A stretch of 64,000 nucleotides of DNA from Gammaproteobacteria bacterium (GTDB lineage: Bacteria; Pseudomonadota; Gammaproteobacteria; Steroidobacterales; Woeseiaceae), in the NCBI GenBank assembly GCA_009937445.1, contig JAACFM010000003.1:1-64000 (forward strand). The letters are read 5' to 3'. The notes beneath the pieces were generated by a model. It was not told the DNA's origin and did no database searches. It saw only the letters and a list, made by a program, of their open reading frames with translations. Positions within the stretch are counted from its first letter, which is position 1. Each line of letters opens with the position of its first letter. A program made the position numbers and the translations under genes. Below are positions 4,988-18,212 of this stretch, one piece after another.

Positions 4988-6676
4988 ATGGAAAATGATT
5001 CTGCCGAGTTGGAGTTACGCCTGGCAGCCATTGAACAGCGACTGCGCGTCCTCGAAGGCACGCGCCCGGGCGTGCCCATTGCCGGACTGGATGAGCAGAC
5101 GGCGGAGCTCGATTCAAAAATCATTTCCAGTGCCCCGACCCACATCGGAAAAGTCCTGCTGATTTTTGGTGGCGCATTTCTTCTGCGCGCGATCACAGAA
5201 GAGCAGATCGTTCCGACGGCCATCGGCATTACTATCGGCACAGTGTATGCGGTCTTTTGGCTGTTCATGGCATTGCGAACCGGGCGTTCTCCGGTCCGAC
5301 GCCTGAACGCGCTACTTTTCGGTGCGTCGTCGGTTTTTCTGGCATTACCGCTATTTGTTGAGGCGACGACCCGCTTCGAATTGCTGTCCGGACGCGAGGG
5401 TATTGTTGCTCTGACATTATTCTGCGCTCTGTCGATCTGGGTTGCGGTCAAGGCAAACCTCAAGAGTCTTTGTTGGGTGGTAACAGCGGGCAGTATTGCG
5501 ACAGCGCTGGTCGTGCTGAACACCTCCCACAGTGCCGTTGAAACATCAATATTCTTGATATTGCTCGGACTTGGCTCATTGTGGGCGGTATACAGGCAAG
5601 ACTGGCAGGGTGTGCAGTGGCTTGGAGCTTTTGGGGCGAACGCCGGTATTGTTGTGCTGGCTGTACTCAGCGCCAGTGACCGCTGGTCGGTGGAGGTACT
5701 CACACCTTTCTTTATGTCCACTGTGTTGCTGGCCGCTTATGTAGGGAGTTTCGCGGTTCGGACACACCTGCAGGGCAGAGACGTCGGAATATTCGAGACC
5801 GTACAGGGATTGCTGGTCATCGGTATTTCTTTCCTGACGGCTGTCATCGCGCTGTATGTCGGGCGCGATATTCTTGCCGATGCGGGCGCGATGAGTCTCA
5901 TCCTGTGTGCGTGTGCTTATGCCATGGCGTTTACGCCAAAGACTCGCGCCGCTCGTGGACGCAATTTTTTCTTCTATTCCACGATGGGACTGATTCTGGT
6001 CGTGGCGGGTAGTGCCCTGGTCGTGTCGCCAGGAAAGGCGGCCGCAGCCTGGTCGTTGATGGCTCTGGGCATGGCCTGGTTCAGTGGTCGATACGGCAGA
6101 GTCGCCCTGAGTCTGCAATGCACATTTTTGCTGCTCGCGGCGGGATTTGCGTCCGGCATCCTGACAACGGGTATTGATGCGCTGATGGGTGACGTTTCCA
6201 GCGCATGGCCGGCACTGGTTCCATGGCATGTGGTTATCGCTCTGACAACCGTTGCCTGCCTCTTTATTCCGGTAGCGCAACGGTCTGATCGCTGGGGTGT
6301 CCTGGCCGGTTTGCCGCAACTGATTGTATTGGCCCTGTCGGTCTGGGAAGTCGGGGGGCTTCTGGTGGTCTTTTTCGCGCCACTTTTCACCGGTGCTGGT
6401 GGCGAGCAGACCAATCTGGCCAATCTCGCCGCGCTGCGTACGGCGGTGCTGGCCGCATCGTCAGTAACGCTAGCCGTTTCAAGCCGTTACAAGCGATGGC
6501 CGGAGGCGCGCTGGCTGGTTTACCCGGTCCTGATTCTGGTTGGGTTCAAGCTGCTGCTGGAAGACTTTCCAAACGGCGAGCCAGTGACCTTGTTTGTAGC
6601 GTTTGCCCTGGTGGGCGGCGCACTGATCCTGGTCTCGAAGTTGCTGAATCGCGATTCAATCCCAGGGCCAGCCTAA
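4988..6676 (+). CDS. DUF2339-like polytopic membrane protein
   Basis: N-terminal coiled segment (LELRLAAIEQRLRVLEG) followed by many hydrophobic segments. Confidence 0.5.
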   Translation: MENDSAELELRLAAIEQRLRVLEGTRPGVPIAGLDEQTAELDSKIISSAPTHIGKVLLIFGGAFLLRAITEEQIVPTAIGITIGTVYAVFWLFMALRTGRSPVRRLNALLFGASSVFLALPLFVEATTRFELLSGREGIVALTLFCALSIWVAVKANLKSLCWVVTAGSIATALVVLNTSHSAVETSIFLILLGLGSLWAVYRQDWQGVQWLGAFGANAGIVVLAVLSASDRWSVEVLTPFFMSTVLLAAYVGSFAVRTHLQGRDVGIFETVQGLLVIGISFLTAVIALYVGRDILADAGAMSLILCACAYAMAFTPKTRAARGRNFFFYSTMGLILVVAGSALVVSPGKAAAAWSLMALGMAWFSGRYGRVALSLQCTFLLLAAGFASGILTTGIDALMGDVSSAWPALVPWHVVIALTTVACLFIPVAQRSDRWGVLAGLPQLIVLALSVWEVGGLLVVFFAPLFTGAGGEQTNLANLAALRTAVLAASSVTLAVSSRYKRWPEARWLVYPVLILVGFKLLLEDFPNGEPVTLFVAFALVGGALILVSKLLNRDSIPGPA

Positions 6677-8787
6677 TCAGACTCAGCTTCTTTCCCGCCA
6701 ATTCGATAACGAACACCGATGCCAACCACCCAGACGTCGTAGTCCCATGAGGTTGCGCCCATCGTCAACACAACCGGAATTGTGTCTGGCAGTACGCCGT
6801 CCAACGCCCAGTCGGCCGTATCGAACTGCTCATAGCGTATGCCCAGATTGACGTCCATGCGCTCAGACGCGTTGTAGTTTAGTGACAGTCGCAGTGAATC
6901 CATTGTGGACTCGAGATCTGGCAGGGGATTGTTGGAAACGTTCTGGCCAGCAAAATTGATCTTTGTTTCGCCATCGCTGTGCGTGTAATCCAGCGTCAAA
7001 TCCGTTTTTTCCCCAAGGCCGGCGATTCGAAAGCCGCCGCCATAGTGTATAAACGCGTCTTCATGGACGGCCGTCCAGTCCGGCCCGGCGAAGGCCTCGC
7101 TGCCCGTTTGACTCGCATCGATCATTTCGGTGCCGGCACTAAGGTAGACCGACGTGGCGTCAGATACTGCCCAGCTGAAATCAACATTGACACGATTCTC
7201 CTCGCCGTCGGTCATGCCGAGTTTTGATTGCGAATAACTGTCTTCAGCCCATAAGTACGTTAGCCCAACCGATATCGGCTTTTCGGGCAACGATGCGGAA
7301 ACAGACATTTCTGCAAACTCACGATACCGGTACGCGAGATTGTACTTGCGCATTAGCGGGTTTTGGCCGTAGTAAGCTGCGATGTCGTTATTGTAGGCAT
7401 CGATTTCGCGTTGCGATGAACCGCCGCGCAGTGAAGCCTCCAAATAGCTTGTTGGTCGCCACCGGACCTTGCCCCAGCCGGTATCTTCCGTCTGCTCCGC
7501 AACTTCCTGATAGTCGCGATCGAAGCGGTTGCGATCATAGCCACCTGAAATGGTGACGGTATCAAGCAGTTTGAACGCACCGCTGAGATTCAGCCGGCCC
7601 CGCTCAAACGAGTAGGGGACATTCGCCTCGAGCGCGCTGTCCGGGAACGTATCGGTAACAACGCGTGACCACATGGAAACCGGCGTCTGATTGTCACGTT
7701 CGTCGTGTCGGTAAGACAGTTTGACGTTCATGCGTTTGCTCGGTCGCGCAGTGACTGTCAGTGCGTAGTTGCTGGTATCAACCTGGCCGTCCAGTGACGC
7801 ACTCGGCAATCCCAGGACCGGTAGCGCGGAGTTGATTGTGTACGGTAGGAACTGGGTCGTTTGTTCCCCGCGTCCGAACGCTGTGGAAAACGCGACCACG
7901 GTATTAAACGTTTCGTCTCGATAGATACCTGATAGCGAAAGCTGCTGGAAATCGTTGTCCGGTTCCAGAGCGAGCCGCCCTTGTTCGGCGCCCGCCGAGG
8001 TTGTGAACGGATTGTCCCAGGTCAGAGAGGTGTTCTTGTTGCGGTAGAACGACCCCAAATAAGCAAGGCCAAGGTTGACCGGTCCTACCGAGAATTTCAC
8101 ACCAGCATTGATCTGGTCGGTGTAGTCATCAACAGGGCGGGGCAGAAAAGCGCTCTGGGTGAATCGGGATCCGGCCATGACGTTGACGCCGTCACGTTGC
8201 TGCCTGCTGTAGTCTGCATACAACTTGACCTTGCGCGTTGGCAGGTACTTTCCACCGATTTCGAGTATTTGTCGGTCTTTTTCAATATTGACCGGTATCA
8301 GGGATGCGTCCAGGGCAGTGAAGCCGCCGGTCGTTCCTGCGGTTACCCAGTTTGACGGCAGCGCCAGAACGCCAGGAGCGGACGATGAAAAAATCGTGCT
8401 GGTGTTATCGAATTGGCGATAGGGCAGCTCTCTGTAACCCAAAGCTACTGCAAATTTCCCGGGCTTTCCGGCTGAAATATTCAGTACTCGAGAGCTCGTT
8501 CCGAGGTCCTCTGCATACCAGGAGACTTGTGTGCCGTTCTTAACGTAACGACCGTTGCCACCCAGATCAACGTAGGCACCTTTTTCATCGAGCCCGGTGC
8601 CGTTGCCAAAGCGTGCTGCGTCGTCGCTGACGTATTTCACGCCGGCATCGACTGCAGCACTATAGCCGTCCTCAAACGGGCAATATTCGCAATTCCATTC
8701 GCTGGTATCGACCTGTGCCAGTGCGGCAACAGGCGTCAAGAGTGTGGCGGCTATCGCCGCAGACAGTATGTTGTTGTTCCGTTTCAT
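6673..8787 (-). CDS. mtrB: MtrB/PioB family decaheme-associated outer membrane beta-barrel
   Basis: Signal peptide, N-terminal CEYC (CxxC) motif typical of MtrB, repeated beta-strand pattern, C-terminal ...GIGVRYRIGGKEAESD; 4-nt overlap with mtrA-like gene. Confidence 0.9.
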   Translation of the reverse strand: MKRNNNILSAAIAATLLTPVAALAQVDTSEWNCEYCPFEDGYSAAVDAGVKYVSDDAARFGNGTGLDEKGAYVDLGGNGRYVKNGTQVSWYAEDLGTSSRVLNISAGKPGKFAVALGYRELPYRQFDNTSTIFSSSAPGVLALPSNWVTAGTTGGFTALDASLIPVNIEKDRQILEIGGKYLPTRKVKLYADYSRQQRDGVNVMAGSRFTQSAFLPRPVDDYTDQINAGVKFSVGPVNLGLAYLGSFYRNKNTSLTWDNPFTTSAGAEQGRLALEPDNDFQQLSLSGIYRDETFNTVVAFSTAFGRGEQTTQFLPYTINSALPVLGLPSASLDGQVDTSNYALTVTARPSKRMNVKLSYRHDERDNQTPVSMWSRVVTDTFPDSALEANVPYSFERGRLNLSGAFKLLDTVTISGGYDRNRFDRDYQEVAEQTEDTGWGKVRWRPTSYLEASLRGGSSQREIDAYNNDIAAYYGQNPLMRKYNLAYRYREFAEMSVSASLPEKPISVGLTYLWAEDSYSQSKLGMTDGEENRVNVDFSWAVSDATSVYLSAGTEMIDASQTGSEAFAGPDWTAVHEDAFIHYGGGFRIAGLGEKTDLTLDYTHSDGETKINFAGQNVSNNPLPDLESTMDSLRLSLNYNASERMDVNLGIRYEQFDTADWALDGVLPDTIPVVLTMGATSWDYDVWVVGIGVRYRIGGKEAESD

Positions 8788-9707
8788 CGCATCAACCTCG
8801 ATCCGGACGGATGATTGGATCCATGTGACTGGGTGTGGCAGTTCATGCAGTTTTGTCCCAGCATAAATTGCGATGGCAGCATGTCGGGCAAGCCGTCGCC
8901 GTCAGCCGGAATACTCGGGTGGCCTGCTTGCGCGTGACAACTCTGGCACAACATAGGCCCACGCATCGAGAGCATGCCCGGGTGGTTCGATCCATGCGGA
9001 TTGTGACAATTGCTACAATCTTCCGCGACCGGCGCGTGTTCCCAAAGATACGGTCCACGCTTCTCGGCGTGACAGCCGAAGCAGGTGTCGTTCAGCGTTT
9101 GCTGCACGAACTGCAGGTCATTGGTTTCGCCGTGATTGCTGTGACAGCTGCCGCAATCCATCTTGCCTTGGCGAATTGGATGGGCGTAAGGCTTTAACGA
9201 TTGAGTACGCTGTTGCTGATGGCAGTCGAAGCACACCTCAGGCTGCGTTGCTGTCACCAGAACCGGATCCTGAGCTGTGTGGCTAGTATGGCAATCCGCG
9301 CAGGCAATCTCGTTGATGTCGTGGTCATTACCGTGCCATCCGAAGCCTGTGTCCGATGTATGGCAGTCCATACAGAAGCCGTTTTGGGTATCGACCGGTG
9401 TTGGTGAGTCGGCTCCGAAAACGGCACCCGGAGAGGGGCGTTCCTGGCCACGGCGCACGCGTCCGGCATGATCACCTGACGGACCATGACAGGATTCGCA
9501 TTGCAGCTGGCCGTGTCCGAACGGCCCGTTCGGGTCGGTCGGATTGGCATGAGCGCCCTTGAACAGAACGAGGACCGCATCATCCTCATGGCAGGAGAGG
9601 CAACTATCAGCGCCCTCCCGGCTGTAGTTGGCGTCCTGACCGGCAGCGGGACTGGCGGTCAGGATACCTAACATCGCTACGGCGATGACGAGTGTGATCA
9701 ACCTCAT
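8784..9707 (-). CDS. mtrA: MtrA/DmsE-family periplasmic decaheme c-type cytochrome
   Basis: Signal peptide and ten CxxCH motifs (CLSCH, CESCH, CMDCH, CADCH, CFDCH, CGSCH, CFGCH, CSNCH, CQSCH, CMNCH). Confidence 0.93.
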   Translation of the reverse strand: MRLITLVIAVAMLGILTASPAAGQDANYSREGADSCLSCHEDDAVLVLFKGAHANPTDPNGPFGHGQLQCESCHGPSGDHAGRVRRGQERPSPGAVFGADSPTPVDTQNGFCMDCHTSDTGFGWHGNDHDINEIACADCHTSHTAQDPVLVTATQPEVCFDCHQQQRTQSLKPYAHPIRQGKMDCGSCHSNHGETNDLQFVQQTLNDTCFGCHAEKRGPYLWEHAPVAEDCSNCHNPHGSNHPGMLSMRGPMLCQSCHAQAGHPSIPADGDGLPDMLPSQFMLGQNCMNCHTQSHGSNHPSGSRLMR

Positions 9708-9726: not shown

Positions 9727-11973
9727 CTAGTTCAGCGGAAAGTCGCGAACGTGATGCACGGCTTCCACATCAGCTATACCACCTTCACCGTGGCAAAGAG
9801 CGCATGTCTCGACACCGGACGATATCAGCGTGCTATCCGCTGCTTTCGTCGCCTCGAAATCACCGCCGTTCTGCTTCATGTGCTCGGCAGCGAGTGAGCT
9901 GACGTGGCAGGCGGAGCAGACCGATGTGTTCGGCGATACGACCGTGTCATCCGTTGGCGTCGAAAGATCATCGCCAGCGTCAACAGTCGTGCCGAGAACT
10001 TCATTCGGATCAACCGGGTAGTAGGTGCCTTGAGTATGGCAGCCTTCACAGTTTGCGACATTGCCGGGAGTTTGGAACTCAAATGTGTGAGCCGAGTTGC
10101 CGTAGCCGCAGACATTGTACGGAACGCCGATCTCGCCAGATGCGTGCATCGCATGAATCATGTACTTGAAGTCGATCGCTGTGTCATCCAGACCAAGTTC
10201 AGTTTCACAGGCTGATGGTGGATCGAGCTGCACACGTTTTGCGGCGTCAGTCGCGTTAGGATTGTGGCAAGTGACACAGACCTGGGGATTGTCTGTGCGG
10301 TTGTTGCCGTGCAGTGACAGTTCCTTGTGGCAGTTGTCGCAGTTCGCGATATCGACGACTGCGCGTCTTGCCATTGCGTCCACGCCGTCTATGCCGACGT
10401 ACTCAACGACGTTCTTCACCGGAATGCGATTGACGCTGCCGTCAATAACAACCGCCGGGTGACCGTCGATGGTAACAGCGGCCGTGCCGATGGCACCCTC
10501 CGGAATGGCCTGTCCAGCGGTCACGCTGAATACGCCCGGGCTGCCGTCGACCGGAGTTGCGCCAGCAGCGCCGAAGCAAGGCAGTGCGCTGACCGAAATC
10601 GGCTGTGCTGGAGAAGAACCGCTGCCGGTATTCGTATAGTCAGCCGTATTCCAGGCGATGCCAACCTGGAGGCGGCTTGCGCCACCGCCACAGGTCGTGA
10701 ATTCGGAATCTGCGAGGAGATCGTAATAGCTGCCATCCAGCGGATTCGTGACTGAGAGCTGGACGGTCGGCATAGAGCCAACAGCCATATCGGAAACGCC
10801 CTCGATGTTGTACTGGAAGCGCATACTTTCGATCTGAGTTGGAATTTCATGTGCTTTCGCAACCTGAACTCTACCATCAGCAATAGTCGAGTCCGGTCCA
10901 TGGCAAAGGAGGCACTGAGTGTCGTCGGTAAGCACCAGACCCAGAGGGTGCTCACCGTTCTGGATCATGTAGTCATTACGACCGTTCGTATCATCACCAT
11001 CGTCATAGTGGCAGGTGCCGCAGGCGGCACGATTCGGAACCAGGCGCCAATTGCTTGCCTGCGGCGTATCCAGGTCATTTTCCTGGTGGCAGGTGTCGCA
11101 GTTTCTGATGTCCTGCGTCCAGACCAGGTCGCTCCAGTCGTATTCTCGTCCGCCGTATCCGACGATCTGGTAGTCGGTGCGAGCGGAGTGAATATTGTGT
11201 ACCAGCGCTTTCATATCGACCGTATTGCCGGTGTCACCGTCTATCGAACTCGGGTTATGGCAGGTTACGCAGTAATCAACGTCCGTCCGCGGGCCCCCAT
11301 GGAACTCGAGGCGGTCGTGGCAGGCGTTGCAGGTGTCATTGTTGACGATCCGGCGCTCGAACAGAGGCGCGCCGCCAACAGGTACAAAATTGATAATGCC
11401 GTTTGAGGAAATTGGTGCCTGGCCGCGGATTTCGATGCCGAGCCGGTGTGATTTGGTTTCGTCAAAAACAGGACCTCCGGGATAAGCCGTCAGATCATTG
11501 GCAAAAGTGTATTGGTAAGTGCCGTCACCATTGTCCACAAAGGTGCCAGCCGAACCTTTCTCCGCATCAGCTTGCGCATTCTCAATGTCACCACTTTTAC
11601 GCGTGACGTAGGATTGCCACTCGCTTGATCCACCGCCCGAACCGGCCGTGAGTTGCGCGAGGGTAAAGCGGATGTCGCCAGCGGGCAGGCCCCGAAGGCC
11701 CTGTTCAAGGTCATTGGTCAACGTAAAACTGACGACAGGCGCGCCGCCGCCGGCAGGGACGGCTACGGCCGAAACGGCAATATTAATCTGGGTGGTCGAA
11801 TCGATTGGAAGACCGCTACCGGTCGATGGCCCCGGTGGCCCCGATGGTCCCACTGGTCCTGAAGGACCGGCCGCACCGTCCTGACCATTGTCACCGCCGC
11901 CGCATGCAGCGAGAACGAGGCTGAGCAACATGAGTGTTGCGAAACGAGCGAAGGAATTCTTAAAACTTGCCAT
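9727..11973 (-). CDS. mtrC: OmcA/MtrC family outer-surface decaheme c-type lipoprotein with collagen-like linker
   Basis: Lipobox LVLAAC, Gly-X-Y run GQDGAAGPSGPVGPSGPPGPS, ten CxxCH motifs; upstream of mtrA-mtrB in the same orientation. Confidence 0.9.
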   Translation of the reverse strand: MASFKNSFARFATLMLLSLVLAACGGGDNGQDGAAGPSGPVGPSGPPGPSTGSGLPIDSTTQINIAVSAVAVPAGGGAPVVSFTLTNDLEQGLRGLPAGDIRFTLAQLTAGSGGGSSEWQSYVTRKSGDIENAQADAEKGSAGTFVDNGDGTYQYTFANDLTAYPGGPVFDETKSHRLGIEIRGQAPISSNGIINFVPVGGAPLFERRIVNNDTCNACHDRLEFHGGPRTDVDYCVTCHNPSSIDGDTGNTVDMKALVHNIHSARTDYQIVGYGGREYDWSDLVWTQDIRNCDTCHQENDLDTPQASNWRLVPNRAACGTCHYDDGDDTNGRNDYMIQNGEHPLGLVLTDDTQCLLCHGPDSTIADGRVQVAKAHEIPTQIESMRFQYNIEGVSDMAVGSMPTVQLSVTNPLDGSYYDLLADSEFTTCGGGASRLQVGIAWNTADYTNTGSGSSPAQPISVSALPCFGAAGATPVDGSPGVFSVTAGQAIPEGAIGTAAVTIDGHPAVVIDGSVNRIPVKNVVEYVGIDGVDAMARRAVVDIANCDNCHKELSLHGNNRTDNPQVCVTCHNPNATDAAKRVQLDPPSACETELGLDDTAIDFKYMIHAMHASGEIGVPYNVCGYGNSAHTFEFQTPGNVANCEGCHTQGTYYPVDPNEVLGTTVDAGDDLSTPTDDTVVSPNTSVCSACHVSSLAAEHMKQNGGDFEATKAADSTLISSGVETCALCHGEGGIADVEAVHHVRDFPLN

Positions 11974-12125: not shown

Positions 12126-12155
12126 AAAAAAAAGCCGGGAGATTTCTCTCCCGGC
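12126..12155 (-). terminator. Rho-independent terminator T1 (minus strand)
   Basis: On the minus strand: 9-bp stem GCCGGGAGA/TCTCCCGGC, GAAA loop, then T8. Confidence 0.85.
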
Positions 12156-12358
12156 CAGTTCTCAATATCAACTAAGCAGATTATTGAAACATACTCATGA
12201 CTTTGTTAATGATACCGACGATTATCAGGTCATCACCATCATTCCCTGTCCTCTACTCCGGATCGAATTGGGTCGCTGCGGATGTGTTGGTATGATGCCC
12301 CGCAGCCGGTTGTTGGCGCGACCGCCGGAAATCCAAACCCATCCGAGGCCTTTCGCTT

Positions 12359-14761
12359 ATGGTTCTGACCCTGAGTAACAGACTGCTTTTTGCAGCCATA
12401 TTCATCTCAGGCGCTTCTGCCTTGATCTACCAGCTGATCTGGGTCCGGTTGCTGGGCCTGGTATTCGGGGTCAGCAGTTTCGCTGTCGCTACGGTGGTGG
12501 CGGTATTCCTGCTGGGCCTTGGCCTGGGAAGCTACTTCTTTGGGCGGTGGTCTGAGCGAACCCGTGACCCGCTGCGCATCTACTTGTACGTGGAGTTAGG
12601 GATTGCCGCGACATCGCTCATCGCCTACCTGGTGATTGAGGCCCTGCCGGTCTACCGATACCTCTATGAGTACGCGTACAACAATCTCGGCTTATACGGC
12701 CTTTCTGTCGCGCGGCTGCTGCTGTCGATGATTGTGCTGTTGCCTCCGGTCTTACTCATCGGCGGTACCATGCCTTTAGTCGCCAAGTACTTGGTCCGCG
12801 ACCCCGCCAACCTGGGTTCCAGTTTCAGCAAGATCTATTACCTCAACACCCTCGGCGCATGCGCTGGCGCACTGCTAACTGGCTTTGTGTTCGTGCGGTT
12901 CTTCGGCGTGATCGGCACGCTGATGATCGCCGTTGGCGGCAACCTAGCGGTCGCCCTGATCATTGCGCTGAGCAAGCGAGACACTGTAGCCACGCATTCC
13001 GCGACAGGCGAGCAGTCGCCTTACTCCTACATGCTGGTCTTCCTGTTTCTAACCGGTTTTATCAGCCTGGGTTACGAGATGCTGTGGGTGCGCATCCTCT
13101 CGACCTACGGGCTGTCGACCTCCCAGGCCTTTGCGCTCATCCTCGCGGGGTTCCTGTTCGGTTTCTCGGTCGGGGCCTGGGTCGTGGCGCGAAAGGTGGA
13201 TCGCCGCCGGAATCTCGAGGCCTGGTTCAGCGCCGTGTCCATCGTTACGGCCTTCAGCGGTGCCGCCGTGCTCCTGCTGTTCCGGCAGTTTGAAACCATC
13301 ACGATCCTGCTTGCGGACGCCACACCGATGAGTCAGTTGACGTACGGCATGGCCCTGGCATTCACGGTGTCTTTCATCCCCGCGGTGTTCATGGGGGTCC
13401 TGTTCCCGCTCGGTGTGCGTATCTATGCGCACGACGTCGAGCGGATCGGTGCCAAGACCGGCAACACCTTTTTCTCGAACACTCTCGGCTGCGTGTTGGG
13501 CAGCCTGCTGACGGGATTCGTGCTGATCCCCTTCCTGGGGATGTGGAACACCACACTCCTTCTCATCAACCTCAGCCTGGTGATCGCGGTGGCTTTCCTG
13601 CTGCGCAACCGCCGTCCTGCCAGGGCGCAATGGGTCTCGCTGGTCATCGTCGCCGCCGTTGCCAACCTGCTGGTATTCACGGACAGCAAGACATTCCATG
13701 TCGAGCTGAAGAGCCGCGACCTGCGCACGGCGGCTGCGGGCTTCGAGGTCATCTACTATGCCGAGGGCCTGTCGGGGACCGTCACTGCCGTCGAACGGGG
13801 CAGTTATCGCGGGCTGTTCGTTGACGGCCAAAACGTCTCCGGAACAGATCCCGTGTTACTCGCCGACTCGAAGATGCTTGCCCATGTACCGCTGCTGCTG
13901 GCCAGGAGGCCGGAAACTGCGCTAACGGTGGGTTACGGCACCGGAACGACCTCGGGGAGCATGCTGCTGCACGGTGTCGATGTGCATGCAGTCGAGATCG
14001 AGGAGAAGATCATCGAGGCGGCGCCGCTGTTCAGCGAGGTCAACTACGCGTCCTATGCCGATCCTGACCTGAATATCGTGCTGGACGATGCCCGCAACTA
14101 CATCGCCACCACCCACGAAGAGTTTTCCGTCATCGTCACGGACGTGACCAACCTCAAGTACAAGCGCAATCCCTATCTTTACACCCGGGAATACTTCGAG
14201 ATCATGCGGGATGCGCTCAGCGCGGATGGCGTTGCTGCCGCCTGGCTACCGATCGGCGGATTGTCCTTCAACGACCTGCGAACCCTCATCGCCACGTTCG
14301 ACAGTGTCTTCCCGTACACGACAGCTTGGTATTTCACTCAATTCCCGACCCATTTCATCATCTTGGTGGGCACGCCGGAATCAACGCGGGTGAACCTGAC
14401 GGAGTTGGAGGAAAGAATGGCCGGAGTCGAGCCTGACCTGCGCAGCCTCAGCGTCGACACTGTCTATGAGCTCGCCAGCATGCTGCTTTTGGGTGAGAGC
14501 GACATCGACTCGCTGGTGGACGGCGCGCCGATGCACACGGATAACCGCCCAATCCTCGAATACTCCGACATGGACCTTTACAACGTAACGGATGTCGCGC
14601 CGAACCTCGGGCGGCTCATCGAGTTCCAGCAGGAGGATCTGCTCGGGTACTTCGCCGGGAGCGAGAATCAGCTCGCCGAGCTTGAGGAATATTTCGGTCT
14701 CTATACCGGAAACTACCGCGACTACATAAAGTGGTACGAGCAGCAGCACCCCATCGATTGA
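12359..14761 (+). CDS. Fused polytopic membrane / spermidine synthase-like (SpeE fold) protein, 800 aa
   Basis: Multiple TM segments N-terminally; C-terminal SAM-dependent spermidine-synthase-like region (LTVGYGTGTTSGSMLLHGVDVHAVEIEEKIIEAAPLF...DDARNYIATTHEEFSVIVTD). Confidence 0.85.
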   Translation: MVLTLSNRLLFAAIFISGASALIYQLIWVRLLGLVFGVSSFAVATVVAVFLLGLGLGSYFFGRWSERTRDPLRIYLYVELGIAATSLIAYLVIEALPVYRYLYEYAYNNLGLYGLSVARLLLSMIVLLPPVLLIGGTMPLVAKYLVRDPANLGSSFSKIYYLNTLGACAGALLTGFVFVRFFGVIGTLMIAVGGNLAVALIIALSKRDTVATHSATGEQSPYSYMLVFLFLTGFISLGYEMLWVRILSTYGLSTSQAFALILAGFLFGFSVGAWVVARKVDRRRNLEAWFSAVSIVTAFSGAAVLLLFRQFETITILLADATPMSQLTYGMALAFTVSFIPAVFMGVLFPLGVRIYAHDVERIGAKTGNTFFSNTLGCVLGSLLTGFVLIPFLGMWNTTLLLINLSLVIAVAFLLRNRRPARAQWVSLVIVAAVANLLVFTDSKTFHVELKSRDLRTAAAGFEVIYYAEGLSGTVTAVERGSYRGLFVDGQNVSGTDPVLLADSKMLAHVPLLLARRPETALTVGYGTGTTSGSMLLHGVDVHAVEIEEKIIEAAPLFSEVNYASYADPDLNIVLDDARNYIATTHEEFSVIVTDVTNLKYKRNPYLYTREYFEIMRDALSADGVAAAWLPIGGLSFNDLRTLIATFDSVFPYTTAWYFTQFPTHFIILVGTPESTRVNLTELEERMAGVEPDLRSLSVDTVYELASMLLLGESDIDSLVDGAPMHTDNRPILEYSDMDLYNVTDVAPNLGRLIEFQQEDLLGYFAGSENQLAELEEYFGLYTGNYRDYIKWYEQQHPID

Positions 14762-14769
14762 ACAGGCGC

Positions 14770-14799
14770 AAAAAAAAGCCGGGAGAGCAATCTCCCGGC
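14770..14799 (-). terminator. Rho-independent terminator T2 (minus strand), downstream of the second OmcA/MtrC-like gene
   Basis: Same 9-bp stem GCCGGGAGA/TCTCCCGGC and 8-nt U-tract as T1, with a different tetraloop. Confidence 0.9.
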
Positions 14800-14862
14800 C
14801 GCAGTCTTTTCTCCTGATCGGTGGTGCTGGGTGGGCCCGGAGGCCCACCCGCTAACCGATTA

Positions 14863-17140
14863 TTAATTCACCGCGTCGATGATCGTCTGGCGACCGTCGG
14901 GGAACACCTGCGGCGTCCAGCCGTTCTGGTACGCATGACCCTTGCTCGCGCCGTCGGCGTGGCAAGTGACGCAAGCCGTCGTCGCTGCGCCCTGGAGCGT
15001 ATCGTCAAGCTTGTTTTCCCAAACAGTGCTACCGGCATCGGTGGTGCTCGCCATCGACTTGGTCTGGTCAGGAATGACCATGAAGTCGGCCGTGTGGCAG
15101 GCGGCGCACTCGTTCAGCGACCGTGGATACGTCGGTGCCTCGAAGTTGTGCGGCTGGCACGAGTCATCAATCGTGGGATCCGCTCCAGCGACCCTCCTGC
15201 CCACACGGCCGCTTGAGTGGACACAGTCCTCACCAGCCGTCCAGTTCGGCAGCACCGATGGATCATTCGCAAACGCGTAGACGCCGCGGTTCCGATAGAC
15301 CAGGTACGGAGGATTATATTTTACGTTCTCGACGACGTCGGGGGTGTTGCGGTCGTCGGGCAGGGGGTCCCAGTCGTAGGTGGACGAGTGAACGCGATGC
15401 AGCATCGTCTTCAATTCGAAGGTCTCGCCGACCTTGCCGTCATAGGCTTCGGACGCATCGACACCCATGCCAACGCGGACGTTCTTCTCGTTGGAGGCCG
15501 CGTTGTGGCAGAGCATGCAGACATCGACGTTGTCGACGCGGTTGCCGCCGTGCTGGTAGAGCGAGCCCACGTGGCAACCCAGGCACTTGGAAGTGTCGAC
15601 GACATTGCGGCGCGCCACCGCCGGGTTATTCGTGCCGAGCACCCAGTCGAACGTCGGGGTCGGGACCCGGACGCGCAGCAATGAAGTCGGGCTCGCGGGG
15701 CTAACCACGCCCGGCTTGCCCTGTATGGCCACGCGGCCCACCGTCGCATCCACGTCTTCGTCCACCGGGATGGTGGTCGTCGCGACGAGGCCGTCGCAGA
15801 CGGTGTTGACGGTGTCCAGGTTAATGCTTTCGGGCTGCCCTGGCGCGGCGTCCTCGCCTTCCGACTGGCCGAGGATGAAGTCATCGCCCTGGGCGTAGCT
15901 GCGCAGCATGCTGAAGGTGCCGCCGCTGCCGCCACGCGGCACATGGAACACAGGATTATCCGCACTCACGGTGGCGTTGCAGGGATCGACCGGGATGTCG
16001 TCGTAGGTGGCTGTCCAGGAGATCGCCAGGTTCGTCTCGTCATCGACGATGCTGTCGATCTGCCAGGTGAACCGCTTGCCTTCTTCCACGGCAGCGTCCG
16101 CACCGTTCCAGATCAGGTTGGAGTTCCCAGTGGATAGGCCATTGTGGAATTCGGTAACGACCAACCTGGCGCCGGCAAGAGTGTGGCATGCCAAGCAGTC
16201 AGCCGTCTCCGTGTCGAGGGTCAGGTGGAAATCCAGGTTACCGGAAAAGTCCCAAGTTGGATCTTCAGGCGGCGTCGAGCTTGCAATTTCGATCGAACCG
16301 TGACACGAGAAGCAGTTGTCGACCCCCACCGTCATCTGGTTTGCCGCGGCCAGCTGCGCGTCTTCGGCATGGCAGACCTTGCAGTTGGGCATGTAGGTCG
16401 GGTAAGTGACACCAGTTTCCGTGATCGGATCTCGCCAAGTACGAATACCACTGTGGTAGCCGTGGGCCACATCGTTCGCCGCCGTCTTCTGCGGCAAAGT
16501 AGCCGCCGTGGACATCGATACCTTCCTTGCCGTGGCAGGCGTTGCACGCCTCGGCAGAGATCGCCAAATCCTCGACCGGAGAGGCTGGGAAGTCACCGTA
16601 GAGATAGACACTCGTCTCGCTGTCAGCGCCAGCCGCAACCCGGAACAGGTAGCGATTGTCGTTCGCCGCCTCGGCCGCGCCGCCCAGCACCTTGATGGTG
16701 TAGTTGCCGCCGCCGTTGTCGGCCAGCGTCAGGCTGTCAACGATGGTGGTCCGGGTCACCCCATCGGTCCGATAGCCGCGCTCTATGGTGTCGTAGCCCG
16801 CAGTCGGCACGCCGTCGGCGGCCAGGGCAAACGTGACGTCCAAGTCGAGCCCGTTCACCGCGAAGGCGACGTTGCTGACCGATTCGATCGGCGGCAGCGC
16901 GTGGGCTGCTGGCGCAGAGACATAGGAGCCGTCACTATGGCATACCGCGCAGCTTTCGATAGGCGTCACGGTGGCTGCAGTTCCAGGCGGGCCCTCTGGA
17001 CCAACAGATCCAGTATCACCGGTTGGACCGGTTGGACCGGTTGCACCATCATCGCCCTCGCATCCCCCAAGTGTGAACGCAAGCGTACACACCACCAGGA
17101 TAGACCATGCCCATCGTAAGAATCCGTCGAACCGGTTCAT
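14863..17140 (-). pseudogene. Second OmcA/MtrC family multiheme c-type lipoprotein, interrupted by an apparent 1-bp frameshift
   Basis: Start ATG 17140 (MNRFDGFLRWAWSILVVCTLAFTLGGCEGDDGATGPTGPTGDTG...). Reading frame changes near 16480-16495 (HGGYFAAEDG | ANDVAHGYHSG). Nine CxxCH motifs across the two frames. Confidence 0.8.
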
Positions 17141-17253
17141 TTCCGTACTCCTTAATTGTTTATTGTTTCGCCTTAAGCCCGGAAACCGCTTATGAGAGAT
17201 CGAGGCGGTTTTCCGGCACTTGGCATAGAGTAGGACCAGCCACTTTTCAAAAC

Positions 17254-17269
17254 ACTGACATCCGTCAGT
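17254..17269. promoter_or_regulatory. Candidate Crp/Fnr-type operator 1
   Basis: ACTGACATCCGTCAGT, inverted repeat CTGAC-N4-GTCAG followed by TTTTGG, between the second mtrC-like gene and a divergent crp/fnr gene. Confidence 0.6.
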
Positions 17270-17368
17270 TTTGGTCCCGAAATTCACGGTGGATTCTGCG
17301 TATCTGGCGTGGTTATAGCGTCGGTTTTTACGTACTGGAGCTCCGCTGCAGATGGCGTGCAGGTCATG

Positions 17369-17384
17369 ACTGATATTCGTCAGT
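17369..17384. promoter_or_regulatory. Candidate Crp/Fnr-type operator 2
   Basis: ACTGATATTCGTCAGT followed by TTTTGC; near copy of operator 1, 115 bp away centre to centre. Confidence 0.6.
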
Positions 17385-17495
17385 TTTGCTTACGTATTAA
17401 CCGATATTCTCAGCAGGTAATCCGGTATTGCATTGCCCGGCAAAAAAGCTAATAAATGTCTGCAAATAATAGTAACCAACCAGCGGGAGTAAGAG

Positions 17496-18212
17496 TTGGT
17501 GTCAAGTAGTGCCAACCAATGTCCTTTCTTCGATATCGAGGCGCAAATTGGCCAGGTGATAGAGGGGGAGGAACACTGCATCGTGGCGGACGCAGTTCAG
17601 CCTGTTTCGTTCGGGCCCGGAGAGGTATTGTTTTTGCAGGGGCGGACAAGCGCCAGTCTTTACGCTCTGAAAAAGGGCCTGGTGAAAATCTGTTCAACCA
17701 CGGCCGACGGTCATGAGCACATAGTGGGACTGAGTACTCCGGATAATTTGCTGGTTGGCCTGCAATCGATTAATCAAAATCGCTATGCCTATACCGGCAT
17801 TGCGGAAACGGTCGTGCATGCCTGTAAGATCAATCACAAAGCGCTGCTTGATCACCTGAACGACAAACCCGGCCTCGCGCTGCGTTTGATCGCGGTGTTG
17901 ACTGCCCAACTTGCCCATAGCAGGGCACTGATGGAGGTGCTGACCCATCATTGTGCGGTGGCCAAAGTTGCCTCCTTCATAGTGCTAATGACACCGAAAG
18001 CAGAGCGCGGAAATTGCCGCTTCCCGATGCCCTTTTCGCGTATGGAAATAGCGAATATTCTAGGTCTGAGCGAAGAGACCGTGTGCCGAATCATGGCCAA
18101 CATGAAGCGATCAGGAGTTCTCCTCGCACCGCGCGGATACATTGAGATTCGTGATTGGGCGCTGTTGAATGCTATCTCGGATGGCAGCCGCAGCTTCCCA
18201 GCGACGCATTAG
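17496..18212 (+). CDS. Crp/Fnr family transcriptional regulator
   Basis: cNMP-binding-like N-domain (FGPGEVLFLQGRTSASLYALKKGLVKI) and winged HTH (FSRMEIANILGLSEETVCRIMANMKRSGVL). Confidence 0.92.
   Translation: MVSSSANQCPFFDIEAQIGQVIEGEEHCIVADAVQPVSFGPGEVLFLQGRTSASLYALKKGLVKICSTTADGHEHIVGLSTPDNLLVGLQSINQNRYAYTGIAETVVHACKINHKALLDHLNDKPGLALRLIAVLTAQLAHSRALMEVLTHHCAVAKVASFIVLMTPKAERGNCRFPMPFSRMEIANILGLSEETVCRIMANMKRSGVLLAPRGYIEIRDWALLNAISDGSRSFPATH

Follow-up and report, generated by a model that had tools for sequence, protein, structure and literature searches.

Probable replacement of a native multihaem cytochrome gene by a foreign block beside mtrCAB in a Woeseiaceae genome

The two near-identical terminator stems on either side of an 800-aa membrane protein gene, in the 64,000-nucleotide stretch of DNA analysed here (hereafter the window), are best read as the trace of one cytochrome gene being replaced by another. 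We propose, with a probability of about 0.84, that a foreign block replaced the body of a native cytochrome gene, X, whose leader and promoter stayed in place, as did its 3′ end and its terminator T1. A surface electron-transfer gene would thus have been caught in the middle of its replacement, the two breakpoints and a piece of the lost gene still being visible. This suggests how bacteria may change the outermost, metal- or electrode-facing part of their electron chain while keeping the promoter, the leader, the terminator, and the MtrAB conduit.

The window belongs to a draft genome (3.29 Mb, 175 contigs, incomplete) of a seafloor-type Woeseiaceae bacterium. We compared it with a set of 107 genomes of the family, examining across relatives the slot between mtrC1 and the gene of a Crp-family regulator; “X”, “type 2”, and “Y” are our labels for three cytochrome classes tied to this regulator–mtrCAB slot. 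As rpoB is absent from the window's incomplete assembly, NqrA was chosen as the species marker. Features are listed in Table 1.

Table 1. Features of the locus and their positions in the window.
Feature	Position	Strand	Remarks
mtrB	6673–8787		after mtrC1
mtrA	8784–9707		after mtrC1
mtrC1, native OmcA/MtrC-family decaheme cytochrome	9727–11973	−	TIGR03507, 475.8 bits
T1, putative terminator of the lost cytochrome gene X	12126–12156	−	24 nt past the relic stop
Relic of X, last ~20 codons and stop	12181–12243	−	reads ..NDGDDLIIVGIINKVMSMFQ, then stop; X-like DNA reaches 12243–12251
Left junction, native X relic/foreign block	12244–12255	.	X homology ends at 12243–12251
Promoter region travelling with the 800-aa gene	12259–12358	+	conserved TTGGTATGATGCCCC; common to L082, L083, L084, and L091
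800-aa fused MFS/spermidine-synthase-like membrane protein	12359–14761	+	GC3 0.79
T2, predicted terminator of the type-2 cytochrome	14770–14800	−	RNA tetraloop UUGC; usual loop GNRA
Body of the foreign type-2 OmcA/MtrC-like cytochrome	14863–17044	−	disrupted at 16465–16485
Right junction, within the lipoprotein leader/collagen-like stretch of the chimeric cytochrome gene	17015–17063	.	
Native X promoter, 5′UTR, and leader codons	17045–17495	−	with palindrome AACTGACGGATGTCAGT
Crp/Fnr-family regulator, native right flank	17496–18212	+	GC3 0.61; syntenic in X and type-2 relatives
nqrA	32.3–33.5 kb		

On the plus strand, T1 is made of eight A's (12126–12133) followed by GCCGGGAGA-TTTC-TCTCCCGGC (12134–12155), and T2 of eight A's (14770–14777) followed by GCCGGGAGA-GCAA-TCTCCCGGC (14778–14799); the preliminary description of this DNA had given the shared 9-bp stem, the eight U's, and the different tetraloops with exact coordinates. 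Each minus-strand RNA is predicted to fold into a 10-pair hairpin (nine perfect pairs and a G.U) followed by the eight U's (−20.3 kcal/mol, z −5.0 for T1; −19.5 kcal/mol, z −4.2 for T2). Both have the form of an intrinsic terminator, i.e., a GC-rich stem-loop with a U-tract directly after it, and are predicted intrinsic (rho-independent) terminators on the minus strand; Rfam matched no known RNA element in the window. Near-identical hairpins often recur in bacterial genomes, and T1 and T2 might be mere copies of a meaningless genome-wide terminator or repeat element. However, exact copies of the stem are found in the whole 3.29-Mb genome at T1 and T2 only (one further, shorter AAAAAAGCCGGG/CCCGGC hairpin exists elsewhere), and allowing up to three mismatches the window still holds two matches, where shuffles expect 0.06. 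Among the 107 family genomes, GGCCGGGAGANNNNTCTCCCGGC is present in 21, all of one genus, with one or two exact copies each, and in every relative locus that could be read the gene ahead of the stem is an X, type-2, or Y cytochrome. A genome-wide repeat is thus the least probable of the readings we weighed. Judged from these genomes, the stem is a hallmark of one cytochrome gene group, in which it is nearly invariant, and T1 and T2 are alike because both are predicted terminators of this group, neither having been copied from the other. Spacing differs by class: the T1 stem starts 24 nt past a stop codon, intact X genes mostly having 24–31 nt, and the T2 stem starts 63 nt past the stop of the second mtrC-like gene, type-2 genes having 61–63 nt. 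T2 does lie at the end of that gene as first described, although the gene itself is frameshifted; on the other strand, the stop of the 800-aa gene lies 8 bp from the T-tract of T2.

As RNA, the T2 tetraloop (14787–14790) is UUGC in the window and G103, and UUAC in G067; UUGC is the reverse complement of the GCAA seen in most type-2 relatives, and a small inversion of the hairpin loop probably accounts for the difference. Between the type-2 stop and T2 stands another strong GC hairpin (14830–14855, GGGTGGGCCTCCGGGCCCACCC, minus strand), which most type-2 relatives share.

T1 had been called an orphan. It does lie between the divergent 800-aa gene and mtrC1, with no intact minus-strand gene to terminate, but a remnant of about 20 codons is still present ahead of it. 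Window positions 12128–12243 align to the 3′ end and stem of X in G074 (76%, E 1e-14), and the X 3′ ends of G052, G072, and G071 also align to the DNA before T1. In relatives, X is a multihaem cytochrome of about 800 aa in the OmcA/MtrC superfamily; it is intact in the slot, directly before the stem and mtrC1, in G071, G072, and G069, and occupies the slot in G074 and G052 too, where contig ends leave part of X or mtrC1 visible. X of G071 ends in ...DDEDLVLFGIIDKIMSMFQ and a stop, and the stem comes 24–25 nt further on in these X relatives, except in G069, where the spacer is longer and includes an additional hairpin, the stem itself varying slightly. A search of the window's own genome (E ≤ 1e-20) found no X elsewhere. 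Since the X 3′ end, the stop, and the 24-nt spacing precede T1, we regard T1 as the terminator of a lost X. The earlier proposal that a minus-strand gene once ended here was borne out, and neither of the outcomes named beforehand as speaking against it occurred: the stem is no genome-wide terminator, and relatives differ in their gene order.

The opposite end of X is found at the far side of the type-2 body. For the promoter and leader region upstream of the right junction, the best matches are X genomes and not type-2 genomes: G072 agrees at 154/182 positions of the 5′ flank and G074 at 77/96 of the leader. The second mtrC-like gene resembles X genes of the window's own clade in its 5′ flank and over roughly its first 30 codons, and type-2 genes from there on. 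A breakpoint scan placed the best break in this leader 77–125 nt from the ATG (~codons 26–42; permutation p 0.0005), the same scan giving no comparable interior break in the control X_G071. At the left junction, similarity to the DNA 5′ of the 800-aa gene in G103, G104, and G105 sets in at about 12252–12257. Because X-like DNA breaks into type-2 DNA on the right and into the flank of the 800-aa gene on the left, the foreign block as delimited by these comparisons runs from ~12.25 to ~17.04 kb (about 4.8 kb) and contains the 800-aa gene, T2, and the type-2 body. The suggestion that a block carrying the 800-aa gene had been recombined in is thus retained, with an extent that was too narrow, as T2 and the body of the second gene belong to it.

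The composition check proposed at the outset agrees with this extent: GC3 is 0.792 in the 800-aa gene and 0.789 in the type-2 body, vs. 0.611 ± 0.038 in the 45 other genes of the window (z 4.7). Over its first 73 codons, the chimeric cytochrome gene has a GC3 of 0.507. One has to keep in mind that both genes have a raised GC3 in other hosts as well, so composition alone cannot date the transfer. Foreign composition, discordant phylogeny, native flanks, and a relic of the replaced gene are all found here, as in horizontal gene replacement, along with both junctions and the sister loci; no transposase, as a transposon or integron would call for, is encoded among the block genes, and the block is bounded by a gene leader on one side and a gene 3′ end on the other.

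The preliminary description had also raised the possibility that the block recombined via the shared terminator, the stem and A-tract amounting to about 30 bp common to both sites. The junctions are elsewhere. On the left, the break falls within the coding end of X; relative to the T1 stem it lies ~90 nt upstream (as transcribed), with X codons in between; on the right, foreign DNA continues ~2.2 kb beyond T2, into the leader of the second mtrC-like gene, and ends near 17.04 kb; moreover, the spacer before T1 is still that of the X class and the spacer before T2 that of type 2. We consider a crossover at the stem extremely unlikely.

Under the replacement that we favour, native X would have occupied the slot between the Crp-family regulator gene and mtrCAB, ending at T1, and the ~4.8-kb block, with the 800-aa gene and its own promoter, T2, and the type-2 body, would have been acquired horizontally. 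Recombination at one edge would have taken place in the lipoprotein leader common to X and type-2 genes, joining the foreign body to the native X promoter and leader; the other edge would have fallen inside the last ~25 codons of X, stranding its 3′ end and T1. We infer that the block and the cytochrome body arrived as one piece and that homologous recombination acted at the leader; the left join inside the X 3′ end may be illegitimate. T1 may now only shield mtrC1 from upstream or antisense read-through.

The acquired cytochrome gene has not remained intact in this assembly. At 16465–16485, a net deletion of ~41 bp causes a frameshift and the loss of one CxxCH, leaving nine motifs split 2 + 7 over two frames, where intact relatives have 10; the body frame scores 133 bits against TIGR03507 (cut-off 209). 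In relatives, the C-termini encoded by type-2 genes resemble ...GRQTIIDAAN, with the stop directly after. The gene may already be decaying, unless the deletion is an assembly error. This deletion and the 175 contigs of the draft could also be taken as signs that the assembly joined DNA of two strains or species into a chimera, the more so as the stem repeat can break assemblies: the starts of two G094 contigs (L067 and L230) coincide with the stem or lie within ~60 nt of it. Against such an artefact, the repeated stem is at neither junction, the edges are matching ends of one and the same gene X, both flanks come from one clade, and G059 has a leader chimera of the same kind, its break 65–86 nt from the ATG. 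A chimeric assembly is, in our opinion, very unlikely.

In the NqrA tree, the window falls in a clade supported at 100/99 with G071, G072, G074, and G052, all of which carry X; G073, G091, and G047, with neither X nor type 2, belong to the same clade. The mtrCAB genes and the cytochrome genes of the right flank are closest to those of G071, G072, and G074, save mtrA and mtrB of G072, the mtrC1 identities being 78–80%. G103 is the best relative, at 91% in the 800-aa gene and 73% in the type-2 body (267 columns). The same two junctions were found in no other genome, so that the block as a unit has been seen once; elsewhere, the 800-aa gene also lies near type 2, but in another order than the window's.

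In a different history, an ancestor would have carried mtrC2-T2-X-T1-mtrC1 in tandem, with a native mtrC2, and the 800-aa gene alone would have been inserted between T2 and X while most of X was deleted. Tandem cytochrome genes with one stem each do exist, as in G096 (Y-T-type2-T-mtrC1), and X genomes and type-2 genomes do occupy the same slot. However, X and a full type-2 gene occur together in no genome examined, the type-2 body has the same foreign GC3 as the 800-aa gene behind an X-like promoter and leader, and the remaining members of the window's clade carry X alone or neither class, which makes the tandem ancestor unlikely. By counts only, X and type 2 do not exclude each other significantly (Fisher, 0.21); the case for exclusion rests on the shared slot.

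The 800-aa protein matches the fused MFS/spermidine synthase profile NF037959 (132.3 bits, cut-off 40), with an N-terminal membrane part and a spermidine-synthase-like C-terminal domain. The acidic residues of GGDGG and DSxD are essential in spermidine synthases. Unlike polyamine synthases, the 800-aa protein has altered acidic motifs in the alignment to 1inl (GGGDGG to GYGTGT and DSTDP to DVTNL), and aminopropyltransferase activity is, consequently, doubtful. At four-fold sites, its gene is 70–74% identical to those of G054, G068, G103, and G105, vs. 33–41% for nqrA with the same genomes and 38–48% for mtrC1 with its nearest sisters; it is also found in many unrelated genomic contexts. By these measures, it is a recent arrival in the window's genome.

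Across the family set, 12 of the 107 genomes carry the 800-aa gene (E ≤ 1e-100), nine of them with type 2 and none with X; seen from the other side, it is present in 9/12 type-2 genomes and 0/16 X genomes (Fisher 1.2e-8 for type 2, kinship ignored). Beyond this set, four of five further carriers have type-2 homologues, the match in G108 being fragmentary. The gene lies close to type 2 in at least four arrangements (the window, L083, L085, and L090, among loci L079–L093 and L182–L190). Shared ancestry alone is insufficient to account for this co-occurrence, because in several clades of the NqrA tree type-2/800-aa genomes stand beside X genomes lacking the 800-aa gene. Genome comparison thus suggests that the 800-aa gene and the type-2 cytochrome form an uncharacterised functional pair, which would give an uncharacterised membrane protein a testable partner at the cell surface.

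X and type 2 alternate in several separate NqrA clades, and, over 21 genomes, the similarity of the leader and 5′ flank tracks species (Mantel r 0.35, p 0.0002), with no such relation to body class (p 0.65). Besides the leader chimera of G059, the breakpoint scan weakly supported one in G066 and did not support one in G086. It is tempting to see the slot as an exchange site where X, type-2, and Y bodies are swapped between a conserved leader/promoter and terminator, with the 800-aa protein as a dedicated, repeatedly co-acquired partner of type 2; we hold this only tentatively, at somewhat less than even chances.

Duplication of mtrC and gene flow between mtrCAB clusters have been published (Baker et al. 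2022, PMC8805035), and our locus resembles those clusters in its extra mtrC-like gene by mtrCAB and in the horizontal transfer, loss, and replacement of mtrC copies; it differs in that one replacement can be followed down to its breakpoints, and in having a chimeric leader, a 3′ relic left stranded with its terminator, and an additional gene for a membrane protein in the block. The text of that paper contains no match for Woeseiaceae. Sediment Woeseiaceae have been reported to carry mtrCAB (PMC12175321), i.e., the same family and genes, the relevant passages giving their presence and not the locus structure or gene replacement. In a narrow literature search, we met neither a resolved replacement with a stranded terminator nor the 800-aa/type-2 association, and nothing relevant on spermidine-synthase-like proteins beside multihaem cytochromes. 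Type-2 genes resemble the OmcA/MtrC decaheme family (TIGR03507) in their lipoprotein leader, their position by mtrCAB, and the 10 CxxCH of intact relatives, from which the window's copy departs by its frameshift.

Two further observations concern the regulator side of the slot. In G096 and G094 (L064 10065–12392; L230), the position nearest the regulator is taken by a third cytochrome class, Y, with the stem after it. In the relatives examined, the palindrome AACTGAC(N4)GTCAGT (17140–17400 in the window) lies upstream of the genes of all three classes, X, type 2, and Y, and may well be a site of the neighbouring divergent Crp-family regulator; the window has a second, similar copy nearer the regulator gene.
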